Source: Opitutaceae bacterium (GTDB taxonomy: Bacteria; Verrucomicrobiota; Verrucomicrobiia; Opitutales; Opitutaceae). From it: a stretch of 44,660 bases of DNA. The first letter of the stretch is position 1. Each line of letters starts with the position of its first letter. The DNA lies in contig JAEUGY010000030.1 of NCBI GenBank assembly GCA_016794625.1, positions 1 to 44,660 of the forward strand, in the 5' to 3' direction. The notes beneath the pieces are model-generated. The model was not told the origin of the DNA, ran no database searches, and saw only the letters and a program-made list of their open reading frames with translations. Position numbers and translations under genes: made by a program. This document shows positions 22,042 to 39,394 of the stretch, in pieces.

Positions 22042-22042
22042 G

Positions 22043-24582: not shown

Positions 24583-24616
24583 AGACCCCATTTCGCGGGC
24601 GGAGGGGACCCGCTAG
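24583..24616 (+). promoter_or_regulatory. Candidate ECF-type promoter P1
   Basis: AGACCCCAT (24583-24591), then 21 bases, then CTAG (24613-24616). It follows the consensus ASACCCCAT-N21-STA shared by several stress genes in the window. It faces the response regulator at 24754 and a 44-codon open frame beginning at 24630. Confidence 0.6.
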
Positions 24617-24629
24617 TCTCTTCGATGTC

Positions 24630-24764
24630 ATGAAGAAGCAGATACTCTCCTGTCCCTTTCCGTGCGGAATCCTCCGCGGGACGGTCGATTCTCCACGCTC
24701 CGTTGGCCACGTCGAGAGTGCCGAACGATCGGAGCTTCAACCCGCTTCCCGCCATGGTTCTTGA
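24630..24764 (+). CDS. Possible 44-aa small protein or leader peptide
   Basis: The ATG at 24630 lies 17 bases after the first base of the P1 STA element, close to the expected transcription start. The frame encodes MKKQILSCPFPCGILRGTVD and then a polar tail, and its stop overlaps the next gene's start by 11 bases. No family is recognised. Support is only the position behind P1, so it may be a leader peptide or chance. Confidence 0.3.
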   Translation: MKKQILSCPFPCGILRGTVDSPRSVGHVESAERSELQPASRHGS

Positions 24765-25215
24765 CGTGACGACCTCCGGTCCGTCCAAACTGTCCTTCTG
24801 GATGGCAGATCGGGGTCAGTCGAATCCGGTGAACGGGTCGCCGCAGCCTTTGCCACGGGTCCGGACCATCCTGGTCCTCGACGATGACGCATCGGTGCGA
24901 CACGCCCTGGTGGAATTTATGCGTCGCGCCGGGTACGATGTCGCGAGCGGCTCCGACGGCGAGGAGGGCTGGAATGCGCTGCGCGCGGGACGCCACGACT
25001 TGCTCATCACCGACCACGACATGCCGCGCTTGAAGGGCCTGGATCTGCTGCGCCGGATGAGATCCTGCCGGATGGACATGCCGACGATCCTGGTGTCGGG
25101 CGCCATGCCCTGGGACGAGCCCGACATGGCGCGCGTGCTGCATCCCGGCACGGCGATGGAGAAACCCTTCCGCTTGCAGGAGCTGCTGGCCAATGTGCGC
25201 GCGCTTCTCCGGTAG
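24754..25215 (+). CDS. Stand-alone receiver-domain protein
   Basis: A 153-aa single-domain response regulator with no output domain. After about 35 leading residues, TILVLDDDASVRHALVEFMR gives the acidic pair, LLITDHDMPRLKGLDLL the phospho-Asp, TILVSGAM the Ser, and MEKPFRLQELL the conserved Lys. The start is uncertain: ATG at 24754, or ATG at 24802 nearer the domain. It faces away from the kinase/regulator pair at 22581-24415 and lies behind promoter P1. It may take phosphate from one of the three kinases in the region. Confidence 0.85.
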   Translation: MVLDVTTSGPSKLSFWMADRGQSNPVNGSPQPLPRVRTILVLDDDASVRHALVEFMRRAGYDVASGSDGEEGWNALRAGRHDLLITDHDMPRLKGLDLLRRMRSCRMDMPTILVSGAMPWDEPDMARVLHPGTAMEKPFRLQELLANVRALLR

Positions 25216-25259
25216 GGGGCGAGCCTGATCCGAAACAAGTCGGAGCAGGTCATAGCACA

Positions 25260-25293
25260 AGACCCCATAGCTCGGCGGATCGGTGTCAGGTAG
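25260..25293 (+). promoter_or_regulatory. Candidate ECF-type promoter P2
   Basis: AGACCCCAT (25260-25268), 21 bases, then GTAG (25290-25293). It lies 70 bases before the general stress protein gene at 25363. Confidence 0.65.
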
Positions 25294-25362
25294 TGTGCCG
25301 GCCGTCACCCGCCGCACCCGTGGCGTTTTGTTTGAGTCGTTCTGCCGCCCTTTTGTCCTGTC

Positions 25363-25875
25363 ATGAAACTCCGCTCTGTCTTCTCAGTCCTGCCGACGCG
25401 GGTCGTTGCTGCACAGGCAATCCGCGATCTGATCGCAGCAGGCTTTGGACTGGCCGAGATTTCGCTGCTCAGTCTGGCCTCCGGAGAAGCGCCCGCCCTG
25501 CTGGATCCGGCTCCTCCGGAGGAAACCAGCGCCGTCACGGTGCCGCTCGATGTGCCTGGCATGGGTCCCCTGGTGGTGACGGGATTGATCGCTGCGGCCC
25601 TGAAGGGCACAAGTGTGGTCAGTCTGGCCGACGGACTGCTCGACTTTGGGGTGCCTGGCACTGAGGCCGGGCAGTATGAGGAGGCGATTCGCGGAGGCGG
25701 CACGCTGGTCGCGGTGCACAGTCCGAATGGCGACAAGACCGATCGGGCGCGCGCCCTCTTTCTCGCGGCCGGAGCGATCCTGGTGCGTACCCTCTCCACC
25801 GTCACCACTCCGCGGACCCGCACCTTGACGCCGCCCCCGCGGCGCATGCCCACACGACCGGAGAAGCCGGTGTGA
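25363..25875 (+). CDS. General-stress-protein-17M-like protein
   Basis: A 170-aa protein with the pattern of the YflT/general stress 17M group. An N-terminal segment AAQAIRDLIAAGFGLAEISL and a Gly/Val-rich hydrophobic middle (MGPLVVTGLIAAALKGT) are followed by the typical FGVPGTEAGQYEEAIRGGGT then LVAVHS. The tail is Pro/Arg/Thr-rich and probably disordered. The family is stress-induced where known, but its biochemistry is unclear. Promoter P2 precedes it, and a lipoprotein gene follows 46 bases later, probably in the same transcript. Confidence 0.7.
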   Translation: MKLRSVFSVLPTRVVAAQAIRDLIAAGFGLAEISLLSLASGEAPALLDPAPPEETSAVTVPLDVPGMGPLVVTGLIAAALKGTSVVSLADGLLDFGVPGTEAGQYEEAIRGGGTLVAVHSPNGDKTDRARALFLAAGAILVRTLSTVTTPRTRTLTPPPRRMPTRPEKPV

Positions 25876-25921
25876 GGCCAGACCGCGTCGTCGTCCCCGG
25901 TGTCTCTCTTCCCTTTCTACC

Positions 25922-26392
25922 ATGAAAAAACAACTGTTAGTGATTTCCCTCCTCTGCGTCGCTGTCGCCACGGCCTGCAAACCTGTTGATGACAAGATGA
26001 GCAGCAACTCCGGATCCGTTCCGGCCACCACCGCGATGCAGCCGAAATCCATGAGTGCCGACGGCACCCAGGCCGGTCGCGTCTATGCCTATGAACAGAA
26101 GAGCGAGTTTGTCTCCTCGATGAAGTCCCAGCTGGCCGAGCTGAGCCGGTCCGTCGACGAACTCTCGGCGCGGGTCGACAAGTCCACGGACTCGGTCAAG
26201 ACCGAGGCCACGCCGAAGGTCACCGCGCTTCGCGCCCAGGTGGCGACCATGACCCAGCAGCTGGTCAAGGTGGATGATGCCACCGCGTCCAACTGGGTGG
26301 CGGTCCGTTCGGGGGCTGAATCCGCTCATGTGGCGCTCAGGGACAGCCTGATGCAGTCGCGCGACTGGATGACCACGAAAGCGGTGCTCTGA
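25922..26392 (+). CDS. Small coiled-coil lipoprotein
   Basis: A 156-aa exported lipoprotein. The signal peptide MKKQLLVISLLCVAVATAC ends in a lipobox with Cys19. A low-complexity Ser/Ala stretch follows, then YAYEQKSEFVSSMKSQLAEL and a heptad-patterned helical region (about 60-110). No enzymatic motif is present. Related coiled-coil lipoproteins occur beside stress genes, but the function is unknown. It probably shares a transcript with the gene upstream. Confidence 0.75.
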   Translation: MKKQLLVISLLCVAVATACKPVDDKMSSNSGSVPATTAMQPKSMSADGTQAGRVYAYEQKSEFVSSMKSQLAELSRSVDELSARVDKSTDSVKTEATPKVTALRAQVATMTQQLVKVDDATASNWVAVRSGAESAHVALRDSLMQSRDWMTTKAVL

Positions 26393-26512
26393 GTTTCGGA
26401 TACATTGCCCGCGGCCGGTCGGGCGCGTGGTTCGCGGGTAGACCCCGTCGAGCCGCGTGTCCGGGCCCCGGGCATTTCCCTTTTCCATTTCCACACCTCG
26501 ACCCTTTCCTCC

Positions 26513-26710
26513 ATGCCTCTCGTCACCGTTGTCGTCACCCTCATCGTCGTTGGAGTCATCCTCTGGGCGATCAACTCGTTCATTCCCATGCAGGGAACGA
26601 TCAAGACGATCCTGAATGCGGTCGTCGTTATCTCGGTCATCATCTGGCTGCTCTATGGCACCGGGGTGATCGGCGGCTCAGGAGACATTCAACTTCCGAA
26701 GATCAAGTGA
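26513..26710 (+). CDS. Two-helix small membrane protein (Thivi_2564-like)
   Basis: A 65-aa protein from the ATG at 26513. Two hydrophobic helices, MPLVTVVVTLIVVGVILWAI and ILNAVVVISVIIWLLYGTG, flank the short loop NSFIPMQGTIK, the arrangement of a small inner-membrane family often found beside stress genes. Its function is unknown. Frame extension upstream to 26405 is possible, but that part looks like untranslated sequence. Confidence 0.75.
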   Translation: MPLVTVVVTLIVVGVILWAINSFIPMQGTIKTILNAVVVISVIIWLLYGTGVIGGSGDIQLPKIK

Positions 26711-26790
26711 TCGGGTGAACCGGCGGAGGTCACGTCCCGGCGCGTCTTGGGCGCGCCGCGTGGTTCCACGATGAGAAGCACCCCGCGCCC

Positions 26791-28818
26791 ATGAGACCTC
26801 CCGTCGCCGTCCCTGGACTCATTCCGGGAACGGCGCGCGCCGGACCCTCCGCGTCGGTCCGCGATCCTGCTGAACCAGGGGCCGATCTCTTCGAGTTCGC
26901 ACCGGTCAGTTACGTGACCCTCTCCTTTTCCGGGCAGGTCCGTCGTGCCAATCTCGCGAGTGAGGCCTTGGTGGGCGCGGCCCGGGCCGAATGGGTGTCG
27001 CAGCAGTTTGTCAATCTGCTGGCTCCGGCCTCCCGTCTTCCGTTCCTGGCTTTTCTAGAAGGGGCTGTGGCCGGGGGCATCCTCGTCACGGACCAGTTTG
27101 AACTGAGGGCCTTTGGCCGTCCGGCCCGCATCATCCGCTGCAAGGTGCAATCCAGCCCGGCGGACCTGGAGTGCCGGATGGTGATGGTGGACCGGACGGA
27201 TGAGGCGCAGGCGGAAGAGGCGCTGCGCGTATCGGAGGTCCGTTACCGCCGGCTCTTTGAGGCCGCACACGACGGTGTCCTGCTCATGGATCCCGCCACG
27301 CGGAAGATCACGGATGCCAATCCGTTCATGACGCGGCTTCTGGGCTACGGATTCGACGAGCTGCTGGGCAAGGAGCTGTTCGAAATTGGCCTGCTCAAGG
27401 ATGAGGCGGCGAGCCAGGAGATGTTTCGCAAACTCAAGCGCACCCGACAGGTGCGCTATGAAAATCTTCCGTTGGAGAGTCGGGGTGGGCGGCATCAGGA
27501 GGTCGAGGTGGTGGCCAACCTCTACATCGAAGGCGGCGTTCCCGTCATTCAGTGCAACATCCGGGACATCACGGCCCGGAAGGAGGCGGAGCGGGCTCTC
27601 CAGCGCAACGAAGTGCTCTTCCGCACGCTGGTCGCACAGGCGCCGGTCGGCATGTATGTGCTGAACTCGGCCTTCCGTCTGCAGCAGATCAATCCGCTTG
27701 CGCAGAAAGTCTTCGGTTCGATCCATCCGCTGATCGGACGGGACTTCGATGAGATCGTGCACGTGCTCTGGCCGGATAAGATCGCGAAGCGCCTCGCCGC
27801 CATTTTTCGTCACACGCTGGCCACGGGCGAGCCGTACAAATCGCTTTCGTTCGCCGGGCGCCGGCGGGACCTGGGCGTGAGGCAGGACTACGAGTGGCAG
27901 CTGCAGCGGGTGACAATGCCGGCGGGCGAATTCGGTGTCGTCTGCTACTTCAATGACGTCACGGAACGCAACGAGGCGGATCGCGCCCAGCGCCGGCTGG
28001 ACCTGATGACGGTCTGCAACCAGAAGTTGAAACGGGAGATCGCAAAGCGTCTGGTCGTCGAGTTGTCCCTGCGGTCGAGCGAGCGAACGGCGCAGCGGTT
28101 GCTGGCCAAGGCCCAGCGCCTGCAGACCTCGTTGCGGGAGATCTCTCATCGGATGGTTATGTCCGAAGAACACCTTCGCCTCGCGATCAGCCGCGAGCTG
28201 CATGAAGAGATCAGCCAGCTCCTGATCGGCATTCTGGTGCAGCTCTCCATCTTCACGCGGGCGGCCACCGTGAATCCCTCGGGCATCCGGGCCGCGGTGG
28301 CGCCGCTTCGTCGGCAGGTCGCGCGGTCGGTGCGGGTGGTGCACCGCTTCGTGCGCGAATTGCGTCCCGCGATGCTGGACGATCTCGGTTTGATCCCGGC
28401 GATCCGGGCCTACATCGACAAGATGCCCAAGCGAAAGGGCCGGGTGATCGCTTTCACGGCGCAAGCGTCGGTCGAGGCGCTGGACGGCGAGCGCAAGATG
28501 GTGCTGTTCCGTGTCGTCAAGGAGGCGCTCATGAACATGTCGAAACATTCCCGCGCACGGACGACGAACGTCGCGCTCTCCAAAGTGCGCTCCGGCATCC
28601 GGCTGGAGGTGGTGGACGATGGCAGGGCGTTTGACGTCGCCCGTCTCTCCTCGCCGCAATGGAAGCAGCGCCTGGGCCTCATCGGCCTGCGGGAGCGCGT
28701 GGAGATGGTGGGCGGCCGTTTTGCGGTCGTGTCATCCCCCGGCCACGGCACCACGGTGCGGGCGGACTTGCCCTTTCTTCACCCTGTCTCGCGTCTCCTC
28801 CGTCCCAAACACTCATGA
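26791..28818 (+). CDS. Multi-PAS NarL-type sensor histidine kinase
   Basis: A 675-aa cytosolic kinase with three PAS domains (about 33-145, 147-270 and 275-405). The clearest are RYRRLFEAAHDGVLLMDPAT and LFRTLVAQAPVGMYVLNSAF. A coiled coil (about 410-465) leads to HisKA_3 with AISRELHEEISQLLIGILVQ, where the motif after His is ExxxQ instead of DxxxQ. The ATPase has FRVVKEALMNMSKHSRA, VVDDGRAFDVA (second Gly of G1 missing) and LGLIGLRERVEMVGG. It is a paralogue of the kinase at 23255-24415. No receiver gene follows; dodecin overlaps its stop by 4 bases. It may pair with the orphan receiver at 24754 or the NarL regulator. Confidence 0.9.
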   Translation: MRPPVAVPGLIPGTARAGPSASVRDPAEPGADLFEFAPVSYVTLSFSGQVRRANLASEALVGAARAEWVSQQFVNLLAPASRLPFLAFLEGAVAGGILVTDQFELRAFGRPARIIRCKVQSSPADLECRMVMVDRTDEAQAEEALRVSEVRYRRLFEAAHDGVLLMDPATRKITDANPFMTRLLGYGFDELLGKELFEIGLLKDEAASQEMFRKLKRTRQVRYENLPLESRGGRHQEVEVVANLYIEGGVPVIQCNIRDITARKEAERALQRNEVLFRTLVAQAPVGMYVLNSAFRLQQINPLAQKVFGSIHPLIGRDFDEIVHVLWPDKIAKRLAAIFRHTLATGEPYKSLSFAGRRRDLGVRQDYEWQLQRVTMPAGEFGVVCYFNDVTERNEADRAQRRLDLMTVCNQKLKREIAKRLVVELSLRSSERTAQRLLAKAQRLQTSLREISHRMVMSEEHLRLAISRELHEEISQLLIGILVQLSIFTRAATVNPSGIRAAVAPLRRQVARSVRVVHRFVRELRPAMLDDLGLIPAIRAYIDKMPKRKGRVIAFTAQASVEALDGERKMVLFRVVKEALMNMSKHSRARTTNVALSKVRSGIRLEVVDDGRAFDVARLSSPQWKQRLGLIGLRERVEMVGGRFAVVSSPGHGTTVRADLPFLHPVSRLLRPKHS

Positions 28819-29024
28819 AAGACACCGTTTATCAACTCGTCAACTACACCGGCGTCTCTGCCACGAGCATCGAGGATGCCGTGGGTGAGGCCATCAAACG
28901 CGCCCACCGGAGCTACAAACGCATCCACTGGTTTGAAGTGACGGAGACCCGGGGCAGCCTCGACAAGGGCCGGATCAACCTCTGGCAGGTGACGGTGCGG
29001 GTCGGCGTCACGCCCCGCCTCTAG
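28815..29024 (+). CDS. Dodecin
   Basis: A 69-aa small flavin-binding storage protein that assembles as a dodecamer. The fold signature is clear: VYQLVNYTGVSATSIEDAVG, AIKRAHRSYKRIHWFEVTET with the flavin-stacking Trp, RGSLDKGRI and WQVTVRVGVTP. The ATG overlaps the kinase stop as ATGA, so it is translationally coupled. Dodecins buffer flavins during stress and fit the surrounding gene set. Confidence 0.93.
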   Translation: MKDTVYQLVNYTGVSATSIEDAVGEAIKRAHRSYKRIHWFEVTETRGSLDKGRINLWQVTVRVGVTPRL

Positions 29025-29067
29025 TCTCCGTTCGAATGACGGCCGTGGCTCCACGGATTTACCTAGT

Positions 29068-29101
29068 ACACCCCACAGCGGAAGCGGGGGAATCCGCGTA
29101 G
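29068..29101 (+). promoter_or_regulatory. Candidate ECF-type promoter P3
   Basis: ACACCCCAC (29068-29076, last base differs), 21 bases, then GTAG (29098-29101). The next gene's ATG is only 13 bases from the first base of the STA element, so the transcript would be nearly leaderless. Confidence 0.55.
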
Positions 29102-29110
29102 GATCTGTTC

Positions 29111-29617
29111 ATGGAAACCCAGTTACAGAGTCCCACGTCCCCCGCGACGAATTCCGCGGCGCGCACCCGCGCGCTGCCCTTACTGCTTTGCCTTGGATCC
29201 CTCGGCCTGCTCGCCGGCTGCGCCACCGAACCGATTTCGCATGTGGTCTCGGCCCCGCCGCCGCCGCCTCCGACCAAGACCATGACGACGACCACGACCA
29301 CGACGACGCCGAACGCGGTGGTGACGCCGGTCATGATCAACGGGCAGCCTGGTTATGCGACGACCGCGGGAGTGCCGGGAGTGAGCACCACCGTGGTCAC
29401 CCAGGCCCCTCCGGAAATGCCGCCCGAGGTGGTCGTGGCGCAACCCAGCCCGCAACATGCATGGCTCGCCGGGTACTGGACCTGGCGGAACGACCGTTAT
29501 GAGTGGATGGCGGGACACTGGGAGCTGCCCCCCACCTCCGGCGCGCAGTGGGTGAAACCCCGCTGGGAGTCGAGCGGCACCGGTGCGTATCGCTTCTATG
29601 AAGGCTACTGGCGCTGA
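29111..29617 (+). CDS. YXWGXW-repeat lipoprotein
   Basis: A 168-aa exported lipoprotein. The signal segment LPLLLCLGSLGLLAGC ends in a lipobox, then comes a Pro/Thr-rich spacer (PPPPPPTKTMTTTTTTTT). The C-terminal half has tandem aromatic repeats of the YXWGXW class: HAWLAGYWTWRNDRYEWMAG, HWELPPTSGAQWVKPRW and YRFYEGYWR. The family sits in cell envelopes and is linked to stress and biofilm loci, without a known activity. A strong terminator follows at 29654. Confidence 0.8.
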   Translation: METQLQSPTSPATNSAARTRALPLLLCLGSLGLLAGCATEPISHVVSAPPPPPPTKTMTTTTTTTTPNAVVTPVMINGQPGYATTAGVPGVSTTVVTQAPPEMPPEVVVAQPSPQHAWLAGYWTWRNDRYEWMAGHWELPPTSGAQWVKPRWESSGTGAYRFYEGYWR

Positions 29618-29653
29618 GTGCGGTCTCAACCGCGTTGCTTGAAGTAAGAGACA

Positions 29654-29686
29654 GGCGGGGTCGCTGGCGGCGACCCCGCCCTTTTT
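29654..29686 (+). terminator. Rho-independent terminator
   Basis: GGCGGGGTCGC (29654-29664) pairs with GCGACCCCGCC (29670-29680) around a five-base loop and is followed by CTTTTT. It ends the plus-strand stress run after the YXWGXW gene and before the convergent hybrid kinase. Confidence 0.85.
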
Positions 29687-29757
29687 GTGTCCGCCAGGCT
29701 CGGAGCGAACCACGCGCGTGGCTCGTCCCCGACTCTCGTCCTGCCGGCGGCCCGGGA

Positions 29758-32204
29758 TTAGGACCGGGCCGGTCCGGTTGCCCCGGTCGCAGGCGCACGT
29801 TGCAGCAGTCGATGAATCCGATTCAACAATACGACGCCGGAGTACGGTTTCTCCAAATGCTCGAGGAGCGGCGCGGGAGCAGAGGGTGGGTCTGTCTCCG
29901 GATGCGCCTGTCCGCTGGTCGAGATGATGCGGAGGTCCGGATTGAGGTGCCGCAGGGCGGCGATCGTGGCGGCGCCGTCCATCACGGGCATGGAGGTGTC
30001 CGTCAGCACCAGCGCGACGGAGCTCGCGTGGTGTGAGTAGAGTGCGAGCGCCTCGGCTCCGTTCGCAGCGGTGAGAACCTGATAGCCGAAGGTCTCCAGG
30101 GTCTGCCGCGTGATCAGCCGGATGGCGGGCTCGTCGTCCACCACCAGGATCAGCTCGCCTTTTCCGCGGGGAGGAGGCGGCTGCGGCTCCCTCGTCTCGA
30201 GGTCGGACACGGGCTGTGCTTCCACGGGCAGATAGACATGGAGCGTGGTTCCAATCCCGGGCTCGCTGTCAACCGTGATGAATCCCCCTGGCGCTTGACG
30301 ATGGTGTGGACGGTGGCGAGTCCCAGCCCCGTGCCCACTCCCGGCGGCTTGGTCGTGAAGAACGGCTCGAAGATGTGTTCGAGGATCTCCGGGGCGATGC
30401 CCGTGCCCGTGTCGCTCACGTTGATCAGCACGTAGCGCCGCGGCTCCGCGGAGCCGGCGCCGACGGAGCCGGCTTCCGGCAGCACGACATTCTCGACGGA
30501 GAGCGCCAGGGTGCCTCCGGCGGGCATCGCGTCGCGGGCGTTCACGGCAAGGTTCAGCAACACCTGGTGGATCTGGGTGGGATCGGCGATGACCGCCCAC
30601 GGCTCCCGGGCGAGACGGGTGACGATCGAGATCGATCGCGGGAACGTGTCGCGGATCATTCCGCCCAATTCCTCCACCAGCGGCGAAATCAACACCCGGA
30701 CCCGCTCCCCGTCGCTTCCCCGCGCGAAGGAGAGCACCTGACGGACGAGATTGGCGCCGCGACGACTGCTCAGCTGAATCGTGTCGAGAATCTTCTCATA
30801 CTCGGGATCCGTGCCCGCCTGCAGCTTCAGGAGGTCGATGGAGAGCAGGATCGGAGCGAGGACATTGTTCAGATCATGGGCGATGCCGCCCGCCAGGCTC
30901 CCGATGCCCTCCATGCGCTGGGCCCGCAGGTAGCGCGCCTCCAGCGAGCGCTGCTCGGTCATGTCGCGCATGCCGCCGACCATGCGGATGCCCTTGCCCC
31001 GGTGATCCCGGACAATGTAGCCGCGGTCCTGCACCTGGGCGTGCGAGCCGTTGTGACACCGGTAGCGGTAGTCGGCCTGCCAGTACTCGCTGGTCGAGTC
31101 GATGGCATGATGCAGACTGTCCATGACCCGTGCGTGGTCGGCGGGGTGGATGCAGGCCGCCCAACCCTCGATGCCCCGGTTCGGCGCATCCTGCAGCTGG
31201 CCCGTGCTGCCGAGGAATCCCTTGCTTGACCAATACGCGTTGGTCACGAGGTCCCAATCCCAGAGCACATCGCTGACCGCGCGGGCGACGAGGCTGAATC
31301 GTTCCTCGCCGAGGCGCAGGGCCTCGTGGGCCGCACGACGTTCGGTGACATCCTGCAAGGTGCCGGACTCCCGCAGGGCGACGCCCTTGTGGTCAAAGGT
31401 GGTTTCGGCGATCTGATGGATGGTCCGGATCAGCCCGTCGGGCCGGATGATGCGATGATCGAAGTCAACCCGCCGGAGACCGGCCGCGGCGGCGGCCTTC
31501 TCCCGGGTGACGAATGCGAGGTCGTCCGGGTGGACCCGTTGGTAGAAGGCGTCCGAGGTGGGCGGTTGCCCGGTAGGCACCAGTCCCAGGATGCGATAGA
31601 TGCCCTCTGACCAGAAGAGCGCGTGTTTGGAGTCGTCGGCCTCCCAGTCGCCGAGTCCGGCGATGCGCTGGGCGTTCGTCAGGCGGGCGTGGTCGATGCC
31701 TGCCTCGTGGATCCGGCGACGCAGATTGAGCTGGGCCATGACCTGCCGGCCAAGGGCGTGCAGAGCGCTCTGCTGCGGTTCCGTCAGCACACGCGGCTGA
31801 AGATCGGTGACGCACAGCGTGCCGAGCGCATGGCGCTCGGGCGTGCGCAGGACCACACCCGCGTAGAACCGGATCCCCGGTCCCGCGACCACCCAGGGAT
31901 GGTGGGCGAAACGAGGGTCGAGCGTGGTGTCGGGTATGATCAACACGTCGCTCGGCTCGAGAAACGCATGGGTGCAGAAGGCCAGCTCGCGCTTCATCTC
32001 GGCGGCCGCGATTCCGTAGGAGGCCTTGAACCACTGCCGATTGCGATCGATCAGGGTGACGAACGCCATGGGCGTCCCGCAGAGCGTGGCGGCGAGGGCG
32101 GCGAGGTCGTCGAAGGCCTCCTCCGGAGGTGTATCGAGAATGTCGTAGCTGTGCAGGGCGCGCAGCCGCTCGAGTTCAGCGTGATCGATGAGCGGTGCGG
32201 GCAT
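29758..32204 (-). CDS. Hybrid sensor histidine kinase/response regulator, apparent frameshift
   Basis: One gene split over two frames. From the ATG at 32204 (AGGAAAGG lies 8 bases upstream, a rare good ribosome site here) come a GAF domain (about 1-165, ERLRALHSYDILDTPPEEAF), two PAS/PAC domains, HisKA with GSLAGGIAHDLNNVLAPILL, and an ATPase reaching GVGTGLGLATVHTIVKRQG. At the C-run 30284-30288 one base is missing: adding one restores GGFITVDSEPGIGTTLHVYL, then a C-terminal receiver (LILVVDDEPAIRLI, LVLTDTSMPVMDG, EKPYSG) to the stop at 29758. As read, the kinase loses its receiver. The break is either a sequencing error in a homopolymer, a real mutation, or a switch. It is third in a minus-strand run behind two small genes and promoter P8. 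Confidence 0.85.
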
Positions 32205-32226
32205 GACGGGAACCTTTCCTTGGTTG

Positions 32227-32661: not shown

Positions 32662-32717
32662 GGAGAGGCGAGGGGAGGAGTCTGGGCGAGGACGACCGGG
32701 CGAGCATCAGCGGCCTC

Positions 32718-32999
32718 TCACGCCAGCTCGAAAAGCACGCGGTCCCGGTTGGGTGCGGGTCGGTCTGGGCGGAGGGTGTCGGTGCGTGTGTCCACGGGCA
32801 GGGACCGAAGCAGGGAACAGGACGAGAACCAGTGATCCTGCGCGCTCGTCTGTTCGGCGCCCGCTTGCTGCGAAAGATGGTACGCGTAGCTGCGAATGTC
32901 GTCTTCGCTGGGTTCAAAACGCTCCGGAATGACCTTGAGCCGGTCCACGATGGCAAACGCGTGGGCGGGTGGACGAAACGCGAAGAGACGTGTGTTCAC
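32718..32999 (-). CDS. Small protein with faint DUF2934 likeness
   Basis: A 93-aa protein starting at GTG 32999. The middle part, EDDIRSYAYHLSQQAGAEQT then AQDHW, is reminiscent of DUF2934 (IRxxAYxLxxxxG...HW) but the match is partial. No other domain is seen. The GTG lies 12 bases after the first base of the P8 element, which decided the start and predicts a nearly leaderless transcript. Confidence 0.6.
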   Translation of the reverse strand: MNTRLFAFRPPAHAFAIVDRLKVIPERFEPSEDDIRSYAYHLSQQAGAEQTSAQDHWFSSCSLLRSLPVDTRTDTLRPDRPAPNRDRVLFELA

Positions 33000-33007
33000 G
33001 CATCACC

Positions 33008-33041
33008 ATAGCAAGGAAGCCCCGCCCGGCCCATGGAGTGA
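33008..33041 (-). promoter_or_regulatory. Candidate ECF-type promoter P8
   Basis: On the minus strand TCACTCCAT (33041-33033, two departures from ASACCCCAT), 21 bases, then CTAT (33011-33008). It faces the two small genes and the hybrid kinase. Spacing is exact but the upstream element is degenerate. Confidence 0.4.
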
Positions 33042-33431
33042 AACCCGCCCGCGGGGCGGGAATGACGAATGTCGAATGACGAATGACGAATGGATGGACG
33101 CTGAAGGGACGGATGGACGGACCGAAAACGTGGCTGCGGCTTTAGCCGCACTCCCCGTAGAGGAACGCGGAACGCGTTTCTTCATCCGGCGCTTCCATGA
33201 GCACACCCTGCAGGTGCCCGTTGGAGGTGGCCTCGCTGAGGCCGCGACGGGACCTCCGGTCCCGCCTCCGTCTTCCGATTGGTTTACGCGATGCGCAACC
33301 CCGCGGGGTCGGCGACCCCACCTCCAACGGAAAGGACAAGGTTGCGCGATGCGCAACCGGCGCCGACGGAGCGGCGTCCTCCAGGCGTGCACCCTGCGGG
33401 CTGGCTCTGCCCGCCATCCGCCGCCGTATCC
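33042..33431. repeat. Palindromic repeat block 6
   Basis: It begins with GACGAATG direct repeats (about 33062-33097, the reverse complement of those in block 4). Then come a GGAACGCGGAACGCGTTTC element (about 33163-33181), GGCCTCGCTGAGGCC, GGGACCTCCGGTCCC, GGGGTCGGCGACCCC and a GGCGCCGACGGAGCGGCGTC element (33359-33378) with one G-T wobble in its stem. Confidence 0.88.
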
Positions 33432-34124
33432 TCAGACGATCGGCTCCGGATGGTAGTTGAACAGGGCGCGCGCCTCCGCGAGCAGCTCGCCCTCGCTGAC
33501 GTGATGTTCGTCGACGACCCGCGACGCGATGATGCGGGTGGCGATGGCGGGATGGTGGACTCTCAGCCACCCGGCGAACTGGTCCTTCTCGCTCGCCATG
33601 CCCGTGCCCGAGCCCAGGAGCACAATCGGCCCGTGGGAGCCAAGGGCGGCGGCGACCGGTTCGAAGAACGTGTTGGGGTCGGGTTTCTCCTGTCCCCGCG
33701 AGAAGTACTGGGAGTTGTGGGCGTGACGGAAATAGTCCTCCGCTTCCGGCGCCTGAACCGTCTCCCGCTGAGTCGACTCAGCCTGCAGCCGGAAGACGCG
33801 CGCCTCGCGATGATCGATCAGCAGCACCCATCGCTGATCCTCGCCGGTCGTCTCGAAGGGCATGCCGCCACCCTCGTCGAGGAAAAGACGCAGGGAGGTC
33901 AGGGCCTCCCGGTCGTCGACGCGCGCGGTCCGCGGCGGGTGGAGGAGCACGCGCCGGCCGGGCCGGGTGGCGGTGAGGTCGCCGTTCGGCGCTTCGGTGA
34001 CCTCGCCGACGGACTCAAGCAGCGCACGAACTGAGCGCCAGTCGAGGGCTGTGGTCGCGGGCTGCGCGAAGACGGCGTTGTAGGTGAGGAGCAGCGGGCC
34101 GGAAAGACGGGCGGGAGCATTCAT
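33432..34124 (-). CDS. Conserved protein of unknown function, eRF1/host-attachment-like C-terminal half
   Basis: A 230-aa protein from the ATG at 34124. The N-terminal part (about 1-70) is LLTYNAVFAQPATTALDWRS and RALLESVGEVTEAPNGDLTA. The middle has RWVLLIDHREARVFRLQAES, and the C-terminal third has GPIVLLGSGTGMASEKDQFA and HVSEGELLAEARALFNYHP. The last two blocks resemble eRF1-domain-like hypothetical proteins seen in Planctomycetes and relatives. I cannot assign a reaction. It starts 110 bases before the end of the ECF sigma gene on the same strand, so the two are very likely co-transcribed. Confidence 0.65.
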   Translation of the reverse strand: MNAPARLSGPLLLTYNAVFAQPATTALDWRSVRALLESVGEVTEAPNGDLTATRPGRRVLLHPPRTARVDDREALTSLRLFLDEGGGMPFETTGEDQRWVLLIDHREARVFRLQAESTQRETVQAPEAEDYFRHAHNSQYFSRGQEKPDPNTFFEPVAAALGSHGPIVLLGSGTGMASEKDQFAGWLRVHHPAIATRIIASRVVDEHHVSEGELLAEARALFNYHPEPIV

Positions 34125-35001
34125 GGTGGGAACGGGCGGGGTTGAGGGTGGAGACGAGAACGGTTGGGAGGTCAGGATCGGCGGAAGCGTCGCGGGACGA
34201 CGTGTTCGCCGTGTCCTGTTCAATCAAAATGCGCAGGCAGGTGCGGGCGCGGGCGATCCGGCTCTTGACCGTGCCCAGGCGCAGACCGAGCGTGGCGGCG
34301 ATCTGCTCGTACGAGTTTTCGAGGACGGTGCGCAGTCTCAGGATCTCCCGTTGATCGTCGCGCAGCAACGCCATGCACCGGTCGACGCTGGCGGAGAGTT
34401 CACGCAACTCCGAGTCGAGCGCGGGATCGGGCGCGGGGCAGACGCAGAGGTCGCCGAGCGTGAGCGACGACTCTGGGTGCACCCGCGAGTCGAACGAGTC
34501 CGTCGTGTGACGGAAGCGCCGGTGCTCGTAGCCGTAGCGGTTGATCGCCAGATTGACCGTGATGCGACGCAGCCAGGTGCCGAGGGACGACTCTCCCCGA
34601 AAGGTGCCGAGCGCCCGGTAGGCGCGGACCAGGGCATCCTGCGCGATCTCCTCGGCGTCGGCGGGATTCTTGAGGAAATTCAAGGCGAGCGCGACCAGCC
34701 GCCGGCGGTGCCGCGCGACCATTTCATTGAAAACGTCCAGATCGCCCAGGTTGAACCGGCGCACCAACTCTGCGTCGTAGAGACGCGCGGCCGATCCGTG
34801 AGGATGGGCGTCAACCTCGTCCTGCGCGGCGGCGTTCGAGCCGTGCGCGAGCGGCAGGTGGGCGGAGCCGGTCCGGGACCGGTCGATGGAGCCGCTCGTT
34901 CCGGGTCGGTTCGGAGGAGGCGGGAGGACGGGTGGAGTTTCCCCCTGGACGGGGGCTTCACCCGGAAGGGAAAGGGGGGCGAAGCATTCAATCGTATCCA
35001 T
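34015..35001 (-). CDS. ECF-type RNA polymerase sigma factor
   Basis: A 328-aa sigma-70 family factor. A Pro-rich N-terminal extension (about 1-75) precedes region 2 (FNLGDLDVFNEMVARHRRRL, NPADAEEIAQDALVRAYRAL, FRGESSLGTWLRRITVNLAI) and region 4 (RDDQREILRLRTVLENSYEQ, IAATLGLRLGTVKSRIARAR). Unlike most ECFs, it carries a roughly 65-residue tail after region 4, the end of which overlaps the next gene by 110 bases. No anti-sigma gene is recognisable next to it. Promoter P4, matching the motif before the stress genes, precedes it by a few bases, so it probably controls itself and that regulon. Confidence 0.9.
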   Translation of the reverse strand: MDTIECFAPLSLPGEAPVQGETPPVLPPPPNRPGTSGSIDRSRTGSAHLPLAHGSNAAAQDEVDAHPHGSAARLYDAELVRRFNLGDLDVFNEMVARHRRRLVALALNFLKNPADAEEIAQDALVRAYRALGTFRGESSLGTWLRRITVNLAINRYGYEHRRFRHTTDSFDSRVHPESSLTLGDLCVCPAPDPALDSELRELSASVDRCMALLRDDQREILRLRTVLENSYEQIAATLGLRLGTVKSRIARARTCLRILIEQDTANTSSRDASADPDLPTVLVSTLNPARSHHECSRPSFRPAAPHLQRRLRAARDHSPRLALSSCAA

Positions 35002-35010
35002 GCCACCAAG

Positions 35011-35044
35011 CTAGTCGATCCGTCCTTCGCACTGAATGGGGTGT
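35011..35044 (-). promoter_or_regulatory. Candidate ECF-type promoter P4, autoregulatory
   Basis: On the minus strand ACACCCCAT (35044-35036) inside GGAAACACCCCAT, 21 bases, then CTAG (35014-35011). The sigma factor ATG at 35001 is 13 bases from the first base of CTAG, the same distance as at P3. Confidence 0.65.
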
Positions 35045-35115
35045 TTCCGGTACGGTCTGGCGGCCACCGGTTTCAGAGGTTCGTCGCAGGGTGGGCGGAC
35101 GGGTTCGACCCGGCG

Positions 35116-35153
35116 GGAAACACCCCATGGGCCGGGGGGTTGGGCGGAGCCAT
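35116..35153 (+). promoter_or_regulatory. Candidate ECF-type promoter P5, weak second element
   Basis: GGAAACACCCCAT (35116-35128) is the same 13-mer as at P4 but points the other way, to the PRC-barrel gene. At the 21-base spacing the sequence is CCAT, with CATAAT close by, so the downstream element is poor. Confidence 0.45.
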
Positions 35154-35221
35154 AATGGAGGGTGTCGGACCGGTTCTTTTCCCGTTTTTCACTCGTCCCC
35201 GCCTTCGTCCCCTCCATCGCC

Positions 35222-35941
35222 ATGCTCCAGAACATCACTTATCTTTACGGCAAAAAACTCGGGGCCACCGATGGCGACATCGGTCATGTCAAGGACGTCT
35301 ATTTTGACGACAAGACTTGGGCCATACGTTACATCGTGGCCGACACCGGCAGCTGGCTGACCGGCCGAAAGGTGCTGCTCGCGCCCGCGGCGTTTGGCCT
35401 GTTCACGTTTGGGGAAGGCGATTCCGAAAATCACCTGCTGCGCGTCAATCTGACCCGCAAGCAGATCGAGGAAAGTCCAGCCATGGAGTCACACCTGCCC
35501 GTCTCGCGGCAGTTTGAGGAGGAGTATCATCGCTACTACGGCTGGCCTTCCTACTGGCAGGACACGGCCTCCTGGAGCGGCGCGCAGCTGCCTGCGTTTA
35601 TTCCACCGGTCATGGAGGCGGCGGTTGAGCGCGAGGCCTTGGTCCCGCGGGCTGACCTGCACCTGCGCAGCACGCGCGAGCTCACGGGTTACCGGGTCAT
35701 GGCCTCGGATGGTCCGGCCGGCACCGTTCGTAGTTTTGTCGCGCATCAACGCACCTGGATGATCCGGGAGATGGTGGTCGAGGCGGGCCATTGGTATGCC
35801 GGCAAGGAGGTGCTCGTCCTTCCGGAGTACGTGAAGGACATCAACGCGGAAGAGGCCACCGTGACCATCACGCTCAGTCGCCAGGATGTGAAGGACACGC
35901 GCCGCAATGATGTCGCCCAAGTGGGGGCGGGCTCGGCCTGA
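35222..35941 (+). CDS. Tandem PRC-barrel protein
   Basis: A 239-aa cytosolic protein from the ATG at 35222 with two PRC-barrel domains. The first (about 1-70) has YLYGKKLGATDGDIGHVKDV then WAIRYIVADTGSWLTGRKVL. The second (about 140-220) has ELTGYRVMASDGPAGTVRSF then WMIREMVVEAGHWYAGKEVL. PRC barrels bind proteins or RNA and are frequent in stress gene sets. The gene diverges from the ECF sigma gene, and a 94-aa gene follows 56 bases later. An upstream in-frame start at 35162 is less likely because it adds residues outside the domain. Confidence 0.85.
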   Translation: MLQNITYLYGKKLGATDGDIGHVKDVYFDDKTWAIRYIVADTGSWLTGRKVLLAPAAFGLFTFGEGDSENHLLRVNLTRKQIEESPAMESHLPVSRQFEEEYHRYYGWPSYWQDTASWSGAQLPAFIPPVMEAAVEREALVPRADLHLRSTRELTGYRVMASDGPAGTVRSFVAHQRTWMIREMVVEAGHWYAGKEVLVLPEYVKDINAEEATVTITLSRQDVKDTRRNDVAQVGAGSA

Positions 35942-35997
35942 GCCTCGTTCACCGTTTTTCGTCCCGTCGTTCCATTCACCCTGATCACCTTTTTTCC

Positions 35998-36282
35998 ATG
36001 CTCTCCAAATTCGCCATCGACTATCTCTCGTTCTCTCACCACGGCAACCGCACGTTCACCCATCTGACGGATGATCCGATCGAGGCGGAGGATTTTCTCA
36101 TGCAACTGCTGGCGGCCCGGGCCCGGATCACGGCGATCCGACACGACGGCGCGGCGATGACCGCGAAGCAATTTGACCGCATGCTCAAAGTCGCCTCCGA
36201 GCGAATTTCGTCCGAGTTGTTGCGCGTGTCTCTGGGATTGGACCCTTCCGAAATCAAGGACCGCTTCGGCTTCGCCGCCTGA
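35998..36282 (+). CDS. Uncharacterised 94-aa protein
   Basis: A soluble protein with FAIDYLSFSHHGNRTFTHLT at the N terminus, an acidic PIEAEDFLMQLLAARARITA segment and RMLKVASERISSELLRVSLG at the C terminus. It looks alpha/beta and compact. I recognise no family. It lies 56 bases after the PRC-barrel gene on the same strand and is probably in its transcript. A repeat block follows. Confidence 0.6.
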   Translation: MLSKFAIDYLSFSHHGNRTFTHLTDDPIEAEDFLMQLLAARARITAIRHDGAAMTAKQFDRMLKVASERISSELLRVSLGLDPSEIKDRFGFAA

Positions 36283-36796
36283 TCCGCCCCGGCCTTTCGC
36301 CCTCCAGGAGTGTTCCCTACGGGTACCCGTTGTAGGCGGCCTCGCTGAGGCCGCGACGGGACCAACCGGTCCCGCCTCCGTGTGCCGAATTGTTCACGCG
36401 ACGCCTATCCTCGCGGGGTCGGCGACCCCACCTCCAACGGAAAGGACAAGGTTGCGCGACGCCCAACCGGCGCCGACGGAGCGGCGCCCTCCAGGAGTGA
36501 ACCCTGCAGGTGCCCGTTGTTGTAGGCGGCCCGTTGGAGGTGGCCTCGCTGAGGCCGCGACGGGACCTGCGGTCCCGCCTCCGTCTTCCGATTGGTTTAC
36601 GCGATGCGCAACCTCGCGGGGTCAGCGACCCCACCTCCAACGGAAAGGACAAGGTTGCGCGACGCGCAACCGGCGCCGACGGAGCGGCGCCCTCCAGGAG
36701 TGAACCCTGCAGGTGGTCGTTGTTGTAGTCGGCCTCAGCGAGGCCGCCTACAATAGAGAGGCTCAACCGAGGCGCTCTCATGGAGCGCTCGTTCGA
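36283..36796. repeat. Palindromic repeat block 7
   Basis: Two near-identical composite units (about 36330-36500 and 36535-36700) lie in tandem. Each has GGCCTCGCTGAGGCC, a GGGACC/GGTCCC hairpin (loops AACC and TGC differ), a GGGGTCGGCGACCCC or GGGGTCAGCGACCCC hairpin and a GGCGCCGACGGAGCGGCGCC element (about 36468 and 36674). An extra inverted GGCCTCAGCGAGGCC lies near 36732. It separates convergent genes. Confidence 0.9.
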
Positions 36797-37174
36797 TCAG
36801 ACGGGTTTGATCACGTCGCTTGGGGGCGGGGTGGCGGGCGGGACGGCCGCGGGGGCCGGGGTGGTCTTCCATGCCCGGGGCACGGACCAGGCGCGGTCGC
36901 CGAGATCCATGGGCAGGGGATCGAATCCCAGGCCCAGCACCTGGGAACTGACGATCTGATCGGGTTTCAAGCCGATCAGGTGTTTGCCGGGCGTCGCGTT
37001 GTAATCCCACACCCAGTACAGATTGAGCGCGTCGACCGAACCCGCCTCCGGACCGTAGTCGAGCGGGGCGCATTCATGGTCGACCGTGCCGGCGTCCGGC
37101 AGGGAATAGAAGGCAAGACGGATCCGTTCCCGCGCCCGGATGGCGTCGATGAATTGGGAGTGACTTGAGATCAT
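36797..37174 (-). CDS. Uncharacterised protein, faint WYL-like strands
   Basis: A 125-aa protein. The core reads FIDAIRARERIRLAFYSLPD, LNLYWVWDYNATPGKHLIGL and KPDQIVSSQVLGLGFDP, a strand order vaguely like a WYL domain but without the WYL motif. The C terminus is Ala/Pro-rich and ends DVIKPV. It begins 22 bases after the DUF883 gene and so is probably co-transcribed under P6. Function unknown. Confidence 0.55.
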   Translation of the reverse strand: MISSHSQFIDAIRARERIRLAFYSLPDAGTVDHECAPLDYGPEAGSVDALNLYWVWDYNATPGKHLIGLKPDQIVSSQVLGLGFDPLPMDLGDRAWSVPRAWKTTPAPAAVPPATPPPSDVIKPV

Positions 37175-37196
37175 GGTGAAACGCGCGTGCGCGGGT

Positions 37197-37511
37197 TCAG
37201 GAATTGCGGCGCCGGACCAGCACGCCGATGATCAGCCCCACGCCGAGTGCGATGGCGAGCGACTGGTAGGGATGATCCCGGATGGCGGTGTCGGTGCAGG
37301 CCGCGCCGGCGACCACGCGTTTGCGGGCCCGGGCATAGACGTGGGCCAGGCGCTCCTGCGCGATCGAGAAGCGTTCGCGGATGGCCTCGAACGCCTCGGC
37401 GGACTGTTCCGAGACCGTGGAGGAGAGCATGGCTTCGGCGTCGCGGACCAGCGTCTTGAGGTCGGCGAGGAGCTCCGTGGGAGTCTGGGCGGAATTAGTT
37501 TCGTTTTTCAT
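37197..37511 (-). CDS. DUF883 (ElaB/YqjD-like) membrane-anchored protein
   Basis: A 104-aa protein from the ATG at 37511. A long amphipathic helix (ELLADLKTLVRDAEAMLSST, SAEAFEAIRERFSIAQERLA) leads to DTAIRDHPYQSLAIALGVGL and one C-terminal transmembrane segment ending RRRNS. This is the ElaB/YqjD plan: proteins that anchor to the inner membrane and in E. coli bind ribosomes in stationary phase. Promoter P6 is 77-108 bases upstream. Confidence 0.9.
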   Translation of the reverse strand: MKNETNSAQTPTELLADLKTLVRDAEAMLSSTVSEQSAEAFEAIRERFSIAQERLAHVYARARKRVVAGAACTDTAIRDHPYQSLAIALGVGLIIGVLVRRRNS

Positions 37512-37587
37512 GAGTGAAAGGGAGGGTTGAACGGGGCTGTACTCGCGTGGGGGTAGGCGCCACACCGCGAGAGCCATCCGGGGCAGC

Positions 37588-37621
37588 GTACGCCCGTGGG
37601 GGACGAGGCGCCATGGGGAGT
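37588..37621 (-). promoter_or_regulatory. Candidate ECF-type promoter P6
   Basis: On the minus strand ACTCCCCAT (37621-37613, third base differs), 21 bases, then GTAC (37591-37588). It faces the DUF883 gene, whose start is at 37511. Confidence 0.55.
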
Positions 37622-37706
37622 TGACCTACCCTGGCGCAGCGCCTGGCCGGCGCCTGGCTTCAGGCCAGGAGGAAGCGCGGGCGCGGCGCGCCTCCGGGAC
37701 CGAGGC

Positions 37707-37865
37707 TCAGGTAGCCCGGCGGCGAAAGAGCGAAGCGACGAACAGGATGAGGAAGATCACAAAGAGGACCTTCGCGATGATGGCGGCGGTGCCGGCGACG
37801 ACACCGAAGCCAAGGGCGGCGGCGACGAGAGCGATGACGAGAAAAAGGATACTATTGCGGAGCAT
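37707..37865 (-). CDS. DUF1328 (YtjA-like) small membrane protein
   Basis: A 52-aa protein with start ATG 37865 and stop at 37707. The sequence [20 protein letters not shown] continues through [20 protein letters not shown] to [12 protein letters not shown], two transmembrane helices as in DUF1328. It is a stress-associated inner-membrane protein of unknown activity. It lies 15 bases after DUF3185 in a minus-strand run. Confidence 0.9.
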
Positions 37866-37880
37866 GGGAGGAGAGAGATT

Positions 37881-38099
37881 TCAGACTGGGTTGGGATTGC
37901 GGGTGAGACCGACGAGGCCGAGTGTCACCCCCATCGCGCCGGCGAGCAGCCACCCGATCGGTGGAAGACGGGCGGAGGGGACGACACGGGTGGAAGCGGA
38001 CGTGGATGCGGACGGTGTCGGGTCGGGCCGGCGGTTGACGCCGAAGAGTACGAGCACGATGCCGCACAGGAAGAGCACGAGTGACAGGAATTTGCCCAT
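37881..38099 (-). CDS. DUF3185-like small membrane protein
   Basis: A 72-aa protein from the ATG at 38099. The first helix LSLVLFLCGIVLVLFGVNRR and the second IGWLLAGAMGVTLGLVGLTR are separated by a Ser/Thr/Pro loop (DPTPSASTSASTRVV). This is the DUF3185 arrangement. It fits between a 72-aa gene and DUF1328 on the same strand. Function unknown. Confidence 0.75.
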   Translation of the reverse strand: MGKFLSLVLFLCGIVLVLFGVNRRPDPTPSASTSASTRVVPSARLPPIGWLLAGAMGVTLGLVGLTRNPNPV

Positions 38100-38127
38100 G
38101 ACGAGGAGGTAGGTGTCCAGCGACTCC

Positions 38128-38346
38128 TCAGGCGGTGGCGGGAACCGGGGCGGTATCCGGTGCGGGCGTTGAGGTGGCGATGCGCAGCGCCGGCACCAGT
38201 GCCGTCGGGGCGGCCAGACTGCCACCTTCATTCTCCCAGGCGGCCTCCACCGGTTTGGGTGGCAGAGGAGGCGAGACCACCAGACGATTGCGGAGCGTGC
38301 TCAGAAAGCGACGGCGACGGGCATCGAGGGCGAGATTGCGCAGCAT
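38128..38346 (-). CDS. Uncharacterised basic 72-aa protein
   Basis: The N terminus MLRNLALDARRRRFLSTLRN is strongly basic and is followed by a Pro-rich, low-complexity remainder (VVSPPLPPKPVEA, STPAPDTAPVPATA). I recognise no family. The tight spacing to DUF3185 (28 bases) argues for a real gene in the same run, but it could be spurious. Confidence 0.45.
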   Translation of the reverse strand: MLRNLALDARRRRFLSTLRNRLVVSPPLPPKPVEAAWENEGGSLAAPTALVPALRIATSTPAPDTAPVPATA

Positions 38347-38473
38347 GGGCCAGGAGGGGGTTGAGGACGGATTGGACGCGGAGGGGAAAAGCAGTTCCGC
38401 TTCGCCGAGGACCTCAACGTCCAGGCGAAGCGGAGTGCACGAGCAGGGAATGAAAGCGAACGCGACGGAGCCT

Positions 38474-39217
38474 TTAGCTCTTCACGCGCATTTCATTGTT
38501 CACCGACTTCACGCCCCGGACATCCTGGGCGAGCTTCGTGACGAGGGACTTTTCCGCGTCGGATTCAGATTCACCCGTGACCCGTACGACGCCGTCATTC
38601 GTGGTGATCTTGGTCTTGATCGCGCTCGTCGACTTGTGCGTCAGCAGCGCGTACTTGACCTGAGTCGTGATGGACGCGTCGTCCATCTTTTCGCCCATCG
38701 TATCATCGGTGCCGACACGTTCCTTGATGACCATGTCGTTTTTGACCGACTTCACACCATCGATGTCCTTGGCGTAGGCCGTGGTCAGTTCCTTCTGGGC
38801 GACATTGTCTGCCTCGCCGCCGAGCGTCACGACCCCGTCCTGCACGGCGACCGTCGTCGACGTGGCGCTGACGTTGGCCTTGACCAGGAGACGGCTGCGG
38901 ATTTTGAGCGCCATCCAGCCGTCGGATTTCTCCGGGTGGGTGGACTTGATCTTGAGTTCGTTGCGCACCGCCATCACGCCGGGCAGATCGGATACCGTGT
39001 CGCCGGCGAGGGCCTTCTCGTCTGCGTCCTGGACCGTGCCGGTCAGGGTGACGATGCCGTCGTTAGCTTTGATGTTCACATGATTGTCGAGCACCGTGCG
39101 ATAGTTGTAGGATGACTTGGCGGCGTCCTCGATCTTGCGATCCGTGGCGGAGTTGGCGAATAGCGCAAAGGGCGCGGCGGCGAGCAGTGCGGTGAGGAGC
39201 AGGGATTGTGTTTTCAT
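38474..39217 (-). CDS. Periplasmic triple-BON-domain protein (OsmY-like)
   Basis: A 247-aa exported protein. A signal peptide (LLLTALLAAAPFALFA) is followed by three BON domains of about 65 residues: KIEDAAKSSYNYRTVLDNHV with DGIVTLTGTVQDADEKALAG, then ALKIRSRLLVKANVSATSTT with DGVVTLGGEADNVAQKELTT, then ITTQVKYALLTHKSTSAIKT with DGVVRVTGESESDAEKSLVT. BON proteins bind phospholipid and protect the envelope in osmotic stress. It heads the minus-strand run to DUF1328 and carries promoter P7. Confidence 0.93.
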   Translation of the reverse strand: MKTQSLLLTALLAAAPFALFANSATDRKIEDAAKSSYNYRTVLDNHVNIKANDGIVTLTGTVQDADEKALAGDTVSDLPGVMAVRNELKIKSTHPEKSDGWMALKIRSRLLVKANVSATSTTVAVQDGVVTLGGEADNVAQKELTTAYAKDIDGVKSVKNDMVIKERVGTDDTMGEKMDDASITTQVKYALLTHKSTSAIKTKITTNDGVVRVTGESESDAEKSLVTKLAQDVRGVKSVNNEMRVKS

Positions 39218-39354
39218 AGGCTAAAGGAAGAGACGAGGGATGAGAAGCGACACCTCCCGCTACGCGGGGCGATGGGCGGGAAGGCCGGGGGACCCGATGC
39301 GGGCGGGCCGCGGCGGGCTCGTCGAACAGGTCGTGATCAAGAACAGGCCGCACG

Positions 39355-39388
39355 GTACACCCGTTCCGAAAGAGACAGCATGGGGTCT
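39355..39388 (-). promoter_or_regulatory. Candidate ECF-type promoter P7
   Basis: On the minus strand AGACCCCAT (39388-39380), 21 bases, then GTAC (39358-39355). It faces the BON gene 138 bases downstream. Confidence 0.6.
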
Positions 39389-39394
39389 AACCCG

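Follow-up and report, generated by a model that had tools for sequence, protein, structure and literature searches.

A shared operator-promoter element stands in front of general stress genes in the 44,660-nucleotide contig JAEUGY010000030.1 of an Opitutaceae bacterium (Verrucomicrobiota; assembly GCA_016794625.1), the whole of which is referred to here as the window. At each site an inverted repeat lies at a fixed distance upstream of a -10 hexamer, and we consider it probable, at roughly three chances in four, that the sites are class II activator-dependent sigma-70 promoters whose operator is most likely read by a NarL/FixJ-type response regulator (RR) encoded in the same window together with its histidine kinase, HK1. 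An earlier, sequence-only reading of the window had described a bipartite promoter, ASACCCCAT-N21-STA, before stress genes and assigned its recognition to the local extracytoplasmic function (ECF) sigma factor. The shared element has stood, and the ECF sigma factor as its reader has not, since the downstream element is TAnnnT, a dyad lies upstream and the distributions of motif and sigma factor do not match.

Promoter geometry and the sites in the window

All seven sites of the sequence-only reading were recovered at the positions given for them. The strict pattern is exact in four of the seven and did not occur in 100 shuffles; the sites at 29068, 37621 and 33041 deviate in the upstream element. 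The fixed 21-base gap was borne out, as six of the eight window cores of the form A[CG][AT]CCCCA[TC] are followed by STAS at a gap of 21, and no other gap in the range 0-44 yielded a case. ACCCCAT itself occurs seven times in the window, close to the five or so copies per 45 kb that had been estimated to arise by chance.

The two elements were then defined from 40 stretches of relatives' DNA (714 kb), of which 39 surround a part of the ECF homologue matches and one, the adjoining stretch L071, was added since sites had already been seen there. Among the 99 copies of ACCCCAT in this set, STA follows at a gap of 21 in 28 and at any other gap between 0 and 49 in 0-3. TA is present at +29 in 42 of the 99, every one of these 42 sites has T at +34, and TAnnnT displaced by 1-15 bp from +29 occurs 0-2 times. 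The downstream element is therefore a sigma-70 -10 hexamer, separated from CCCCAT by 22 bp, which does not need C or G before its TA. What was conserved in the earlier definition was thus TAnnnT, and all seven hexamers in the window (TAGTCT, TAGTGT, TAGGAT, TAGCTT, TACGCT, TACCGT and TATGGT) end in T; STA as such had to be given up, with A or T preceding TA in 14 of the 42 relatives' sites.

The upstream element is a dyad, GGGT-N3-ACCC, plus CAT, with the extended consensus GTMGGGTTACACCCCAT. Its left half was recovered in 42 sites from the Planctomycetes-Verrucomicrobia-Chlamydiae (PVC) group, those with a scanned left half having been removed: G at -7 in 42/42, at -6 in 40/42 and at -5 in 33/42, and T at -4 in 32/42. 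With the -10 hexamer placed at -12 to -7, the dyad centre falls near -43 and the operator spans about -51 to -35, so that on sequence grounds it would be a candidate dimeric operator that overlaps or replaces the -35 element. Class II activators bind around this promoter position.

Start codons point to the same geometry. Over 99 sites, a set that takes in the window and loci chosen by motif, ATG occurs 7, 14 and 3 times at offsets 5, 6 and 7 past the -10 hexamer, against a background of about one per position, and over 167 PVC sites 14 and 17 times at offsets 6 and 7, against about four. Four of the eight window sites, that of the ECF gene included, have a start codon 5-7 nt past the -10 (three ATG, one GTG). 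The peak supports the -10 call and predicts leaderless mRNAs, which would be expected at roughly a fifth of the promoters, with ATG at the presumed transcription start. Judged from the fixed TAnnnT and this peak, the -10 hexamer would lie at the right distance from the transcription start for a class II promoter.

A weight matrix built from 91 sites in relatives' loci returned the same seven sites from the window and an eighth, at 35122 on the plus strand, with scores of 16.6-27.6 bits; everything else scored 9 or less and the reversed window gave zero sites. On the plus strand, the operator at 24575-24591 with TAGTCT at 24614-24619 (22.2 bits) precedes the gene of a receiver protein (open reading frame (ORF) 24703-25215), and that at 25252-25268 with TAGTGT at 25291-25296 (25.5 bits) precedes ORF 25363-25875, which had been called a general stress protein and has no Pfam or NCBIfam match. 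A weaker operator at 29060-29076, reading ACCCCAC, with TAGGAT at 29099-29104 (17.6 bits) lies before the gene of a YXWGXW lipoprotein, whose ATG at 29111 is 6 nt past the -10. The eighth site, with its operator at 35112-35128 and CATAAT at 35151-35156, has the lowest score of the eight (16.6 bits) and precedes a PRC-barrel gene (ORF 35162-35941; PRC E-value 1.5e-8). On the minus strand, a degenerate operator at 33049-33033 with TATGGT at 33010-33005 (21.1 bits) stands before the small ORF 32718-32999, with GTG 5 nt past the -10. The operator at 35052-35036 with TAGCTT at 35013-35008 (23.4 bits) precedes the ECF sigma gene, whose ATG at 35001 is 6 nt past the -10. The operator at 37629-37613, reading TCCCCAT, with TACGCT at 37590-37585 (25.1 bits) lies before a DUF883 gene with ATG at 37577, 7 nt past the -10. 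The highest score, 27.6 bits, belongs to the operator at 39396-39380 with TACCGT at 39357-39352, before a triple-BON (OsmY-like) gene.

The HK1-RR operon as candidate reader

The RR gene (22584-23258, minus strand) encodes a receiver and a GerE/LuxR helix-turn-helix (HTH) domain (Response_reg 4.3e-27, GerE 5.6e-18); its best NCBIfam model is MctR at 184.9 bits, far under the cut-off of 300. HK1 (23255-24415, minus strand) overlaps the RR start and is a HisKA_3/HATPase_c histidine kinase with an N-terminal region that has no Pfam match. The pair thus has the composition of a NarL/FixJ system, in which a receiver-GerE regulator is joined by a HisKA_3 kinase. The operon is itself preceded by an operator, GTAGGGCTTCACCCCAT (24526-24542, minus strand; site 24532), located 138 bp before the HK1 domain start. 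Its operator score of 20.5 bits is the second best in the window and its score under the full model is 0.2, as a -10 at the usual spacing is absent; no clear -10 was seen there.

Co-occurrence of RR and motif speaks in favour of this regulator. RR homologues (E-value ≤ 1e-50) were found in 88 of 250 sampled genomes of the family, and a site was present in 74 of the 88 genomes with RR against 30 of the 162 without (p 1e-24). For RR counts here and outside the family, scoring was limited to at most the 10 or 11 top candidates of each genome, and the co-occurrence and control figures were entered or totalled by hand from the scan outputs. The association persisted within genera (p ≤ 5e-5, 20,000 label permutations), so the link is more than genus-level kinship. 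Outside the family, RR was present in all 15 genomes with at least three sites (p 5.5e-15) and in 19 of 25 with at least two. RR and site are also physically linked, lying within 10 kb of each other in 13 of the 21 non-family genomes compared, with 0.43 expected. These 21, with one RR copy each, come from 25 non-family genomes that have both. For three of the remaining four, site positions were not listed; in the last, G534, sites and RR copies fall on separate contigs, which amounts to a miss.

Operators were likewise abundant where loci had been picked by RR homology. We took 20 such loci (68 kb), for the most part, though not exhaustively, the best-scoring RR matches; they contain 30 operators, and their reversed sequence contains none. 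A background made up of those 22 of the 40 relatives' stretches that have no full site held 4 operators in 385 kb, a choice that inflates the contrast and leaves the reversed control unaffected. A same-strand operator stands 119-163 bp before the domain start in 16 of 38 HK1-domain matches (one gene counted twice), which come from several PVC groups and include loci of Limisphaerales and Phycisphaerales. In the set of at least 115 motif-chosen loci, an operator precedes 9 of the 20 HK1 genes found in 12 loci, several of the remaining genes being the second of tandem kinases; seven of these nine operators were not the match that had selected the locus, and the other two lie outside the matches listed.

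The HK1 or RR operators of several Opitutaceae loci resemble that of the window in having no -10 at the usual spacing; by eye, an AT-rich TAnwTnAT block lies 33-35 bp on in L296, L297, L298 and L121, about one helical turn further. Such an arrangement is easier to reconcile with an activator than with a sigma factor whose spacer is fixed. A common sequence resembling CACCCCAT[AC]AACAA[TA]CGCTCGCC was also seen by eye in the RR/HK1 promoters of these and other Opitutaceae. Just 3' of the RR gene, five genomes carry a variant site, GTAGGGCAAGGCCCCAT (GTAGGGCAACGCCCCAT in L305), with TAnnnT at the usual place (L305:262, L306:245, L309:258, L310:3355 and L311:309). A second kinase of the window, the PAS-HisKA_3 protein HK2 (26791-28818, plus strand), clusters with HK1 orthologues, and in 20 loci a kinase of this group is found no more than 3 kb from sites.

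On the proposed mechanism, HK1, and perhaps other HisKA_3 kinases such as HK2, would phosphorylate RR, presumably upon a stress signal. RR would then bind the dyad in place of a -35 hexamer and position a polymerase, probably of the RpoD type, at promoters that lack a -35. This may switch on a general stress set comprising BON/OsmY, DUF883, PRC-barrel, CsbD, OsmC-like, dodecin and YXWGXW lipoprotein genes. RR would also activate its own operon and the ECF sigma gene, which would therefore form a second tier.

Such a system resembles the class II regulators of the NarL/FixJ family (NreC, NarL, LuxR) in its receiver and GerE HTH, in a HisKA_3 partner from the same operon and in an inverted-repeat operator that overlaps the -35 region of a sigma-70 promoter. 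It differs from them in the operator itself, here the odd-spaced GGGT-N3-ACCCCAT dyad; NreC recognises TAGGG-N4-CCCTA and NarL recognises TACYYMT. The mycobacterial DosR regulon is alike in that a NarL-type system directly drives a set of stress genes through a GC-rich palindrome, but operator sequence, phylum and gene content differ and no orthology is claimed. The general stress responses run by ECF sigma factors or by PhyR-EcfG are alike in gene set and in having an ECF gene clustered with it; they differ from the present case, where TAnnnT -10 hexamers accompany an activator site and the ECF gene is a target.

Evidence against the regulator and other possible readers

Several observations weigh against RR as the reader everywhere. 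A NarL/FixJ regulon should retain its regulator wherever the operator is used, as it does in the 15 non-family genomes above, and yet RR (E-value ≤ 1e-50) is absent from 20 of the 82 family genomes with at least two sites. All candidates were scored in 14 of these 20, and the best matches are 38-43% identical, apart from one of 45% in genome G142 that covers the receiver only. The G142 gene, beside two motif sites (L291:9447-9914), keeps its receiver and has no HTH in the same frame. The full N-terminal domain of HK1 was found in none of the 20 genomes, six of which have partial C-terminal matches. Outside the family, six of 25 genomes with at least two sites have no RR, each of the six having two sites. 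Conversely, 14 family genomes and 11 others have RR and no strict site, with near-operators beside RR in two of three such loci examined. No operator stands at 22 of the 38 HK1-domain matches, some of which are second tandem kinases or partial matches. Moreover, we know of no NarL-type box that matches the odd-spaced GGGT-N3-ACCC dyad. In the motif-bearing genomes without RR there must therefore be another reader, or else the HK1-RR operon is only a target of a different factor.

The first of these alternatives holds that the operator is common to two or more regulators and that readers were swapped in some Opitutaceae lineages, with the operator kept; this is compatible with RR as the reader in the window, and we judge it rather unlikely. 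Its clearest case is genus g2, in which all six sampled genomes have sites and none has RR (three were rechecked for RR, and four for full HK1, which is absent). A widespread LuxR-type RR, about 39% identical and alike in its HTH, was present in 14 of 17 genomes checked. It was rejected as reader because its loci (L131-L147) contain no operator above 13 bits; it also occurs in the motif-free genome G158 (L146), and no substitute reader came to light in the loci examined. Nothing convincing was seen in the other LuxR-type RR loci examined in G010, G058, G032, G239 and G025, nor in the loci around sites in G010, G058 and G032 (L282-L283 in part).

In the second alternative, an unlinked transcription factor reads the operator everywhere and counts both the HK1-RR operon and the ECF gene among its targets. 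Motif-rich genomes without RR or HK1 (G010 with 7 sites, G032 with 11, G058 with 11 and G239 with 10) would be explained in this way, and the operator before HK1 fits a target as well as it fits autoregulation. Such a factor would not lead one to expect the within-genus co-occurrence of RR and motif, or that none of the 15 non-family genomes with at least three sites is without RR. The recognised regulators in recurrent clusters near sites are only kinases, receivers, RR and the ECF sigma factor, no systematic screen for other DNA-binding domains having been made. We regard this alternative as improbable.

Recognition of ASACCCCAT as a -35 and of STA as a -10 by the local ECF sigma factor, or by its subfamily, is very improbable, given a TAnnnT -10, a dyad at about -43 and a subfamily not found outside the family for a motif that is phylum-wide. 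ECF promoters separate their -35 and -10 elements by about 16-17 bp, and a dyad centred near -43 is therefore too far upstream for an ECF -35. Where a CGT-type -10 about 16-17 bp after an AAC-type -35 would mark an ECF promoter, all 42 fixed-TA sites have TAnnnT. According to PMC3426412, ECF promoters typically carry AAC in their -35 and CGT in their -10 elements, and this too argues against an ECF reader.

The distribution of the sigma factor did not follow that of the motif in the phylum. With no more than the 11 top-scoring candidates considered in each genome, the subfamily (E-value ≤ 1e-44) was found in 13 of 288 sampled phylum genomes, every one of them a member of the window's family. 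In a comparison of 73 family genomes, six with 3-11 sites lack the subfamily (G010, G016, G022, G032, G050 and G058) and 14 that have it carry no site. In favour of the ECF reader, the motif stands in the promoter of the sigma gene itself, 13 of the 44 ECF matches in relatives' loci have a site no more than 400 bp upstream, and there is some excess of ECF in the family's motif genomes (22/30 vs 14/43, p 8e-4). The matching promoter had been taken as a sign of autoregulation, a view that was not sustained; the promoter matches because the ECF gene is a target. Another, more distantly related ECF group (about 45% identical) occurs widely, including where no motif is present; it is excluded because the -10 is TAnnnT, distribution alone being insufficient.

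The ECF gene itself occupies 34015-35001 on the minus strand, with a Sigma70_r2 match from residue 94 as counted from the promoter-implied ATG. An mRNA starting at this ATG, right after the -10, would encode about 90 Pro/Ala-rich residues before region 2 (window 34722-35001); in L085, L087, L094 and L105 the ATG likewise lies 5-6 nt past the -10 of the site. In at least four genomes (G033:C113, G068:C3, G025:C27 and G010:C8), genes for a second group of ECF factors and for another LuxR-type RR lie within about 2 kb of each other, with no operator near that RR.

Distribution, target genes and implications

The motif recurs elsewhere in the genome. Its relaxed form, SACCCCAT-N22-TANNNT, has 12 matches in the window's own genome, against one for the backwards pattern. 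Four of the 12 fall in the window; of the other eight, seven score above 20 bits and one 1.9 bits, and the sites are therefore not limited to this contig. The genes after the outside sites include those of OsmC-like and KaiC-like proteins, as named by eye. In the family, GNNNWWSACCCCAT-N22-TANNNT gave 542 matches in 104 of the 250 sampled genomes, and the backwards pattern 11. Outside the family, 46 of 263 phylum genomes have a site and 15 have at least three; counted by hand, 134 matches compare with 9 in the control, and a lone site may therefore be due to chance.

When 84,980 species genomes were scanned with TMGGGTWACACCCCAT-N22-TANNNT, at least 115 stretches were returned, with about 4-7 expected by chance on a hand estimate. 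Names among 80 of the matches listed were Verrucomicrobia, Lentisphaerae, Kiritimatiellae, Phycisphaerae or 'PVC group' in 73; the other seven comprised one each from Omnitrophota, Acidobacteria and Acetobacteraceae, and four whose names were uninformative.

Among relatives, BON/OsmY forms the most frequent target cluster, with 17 of its 26 members as first genes. In the window, this type is represented by the triple-BON gene at 38474-39217 (minus strand), and the DUF883 target (ElaB-like, below cut-off) lies at 37197-37577 (minus strand). Other recurring targets, mostly named by eye, are PRC-barrel, CsbD, OsmC-like, YciF-like, dodecin and Thivi_2564-like small membrane proteins, kinases and the ECF gene; a site lies within 400 bp in three of five dodecin matches. 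Genes were called by a longest-ORF rule, which is crude, and target counts are thus approximate. Apart from these genes, the window contains a dispersed repeat (22040-22515, 33153-33434, 36298-36758, 39386-39922 and 43862-44079), comprising a 117-nt unit present seven times and related families of 229, 89 and 73 nt.

No description of the motif or regulon was found in a search of the open-access literature, and the operator letters also returned nothing there. ACCCC does not appear in the text of a paper on the regulators of PVC bacteria (PMC4989314).

Tentatively, and with the balance of probability somewhat against it, the operator could be the mark of an ancestral PVC general stress regulon, run by a NarL-type two-component system in place of a stress sigma factor and using leaderless promoters, from which RR was lost and replaced in some Opitutaceae lineages with operator and regulon kept. 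For a stress regulon in genomes of Verrucomicrobiota, Lentisphaerae and Kiritimatiellae, an operator, a promoter geometry and a candidate regulator are now concrete. The organisation of the general stress response in these bacteria thereby becomes directly testable, and candidate sets of stress genes become readable from the genomes of uncultured members.

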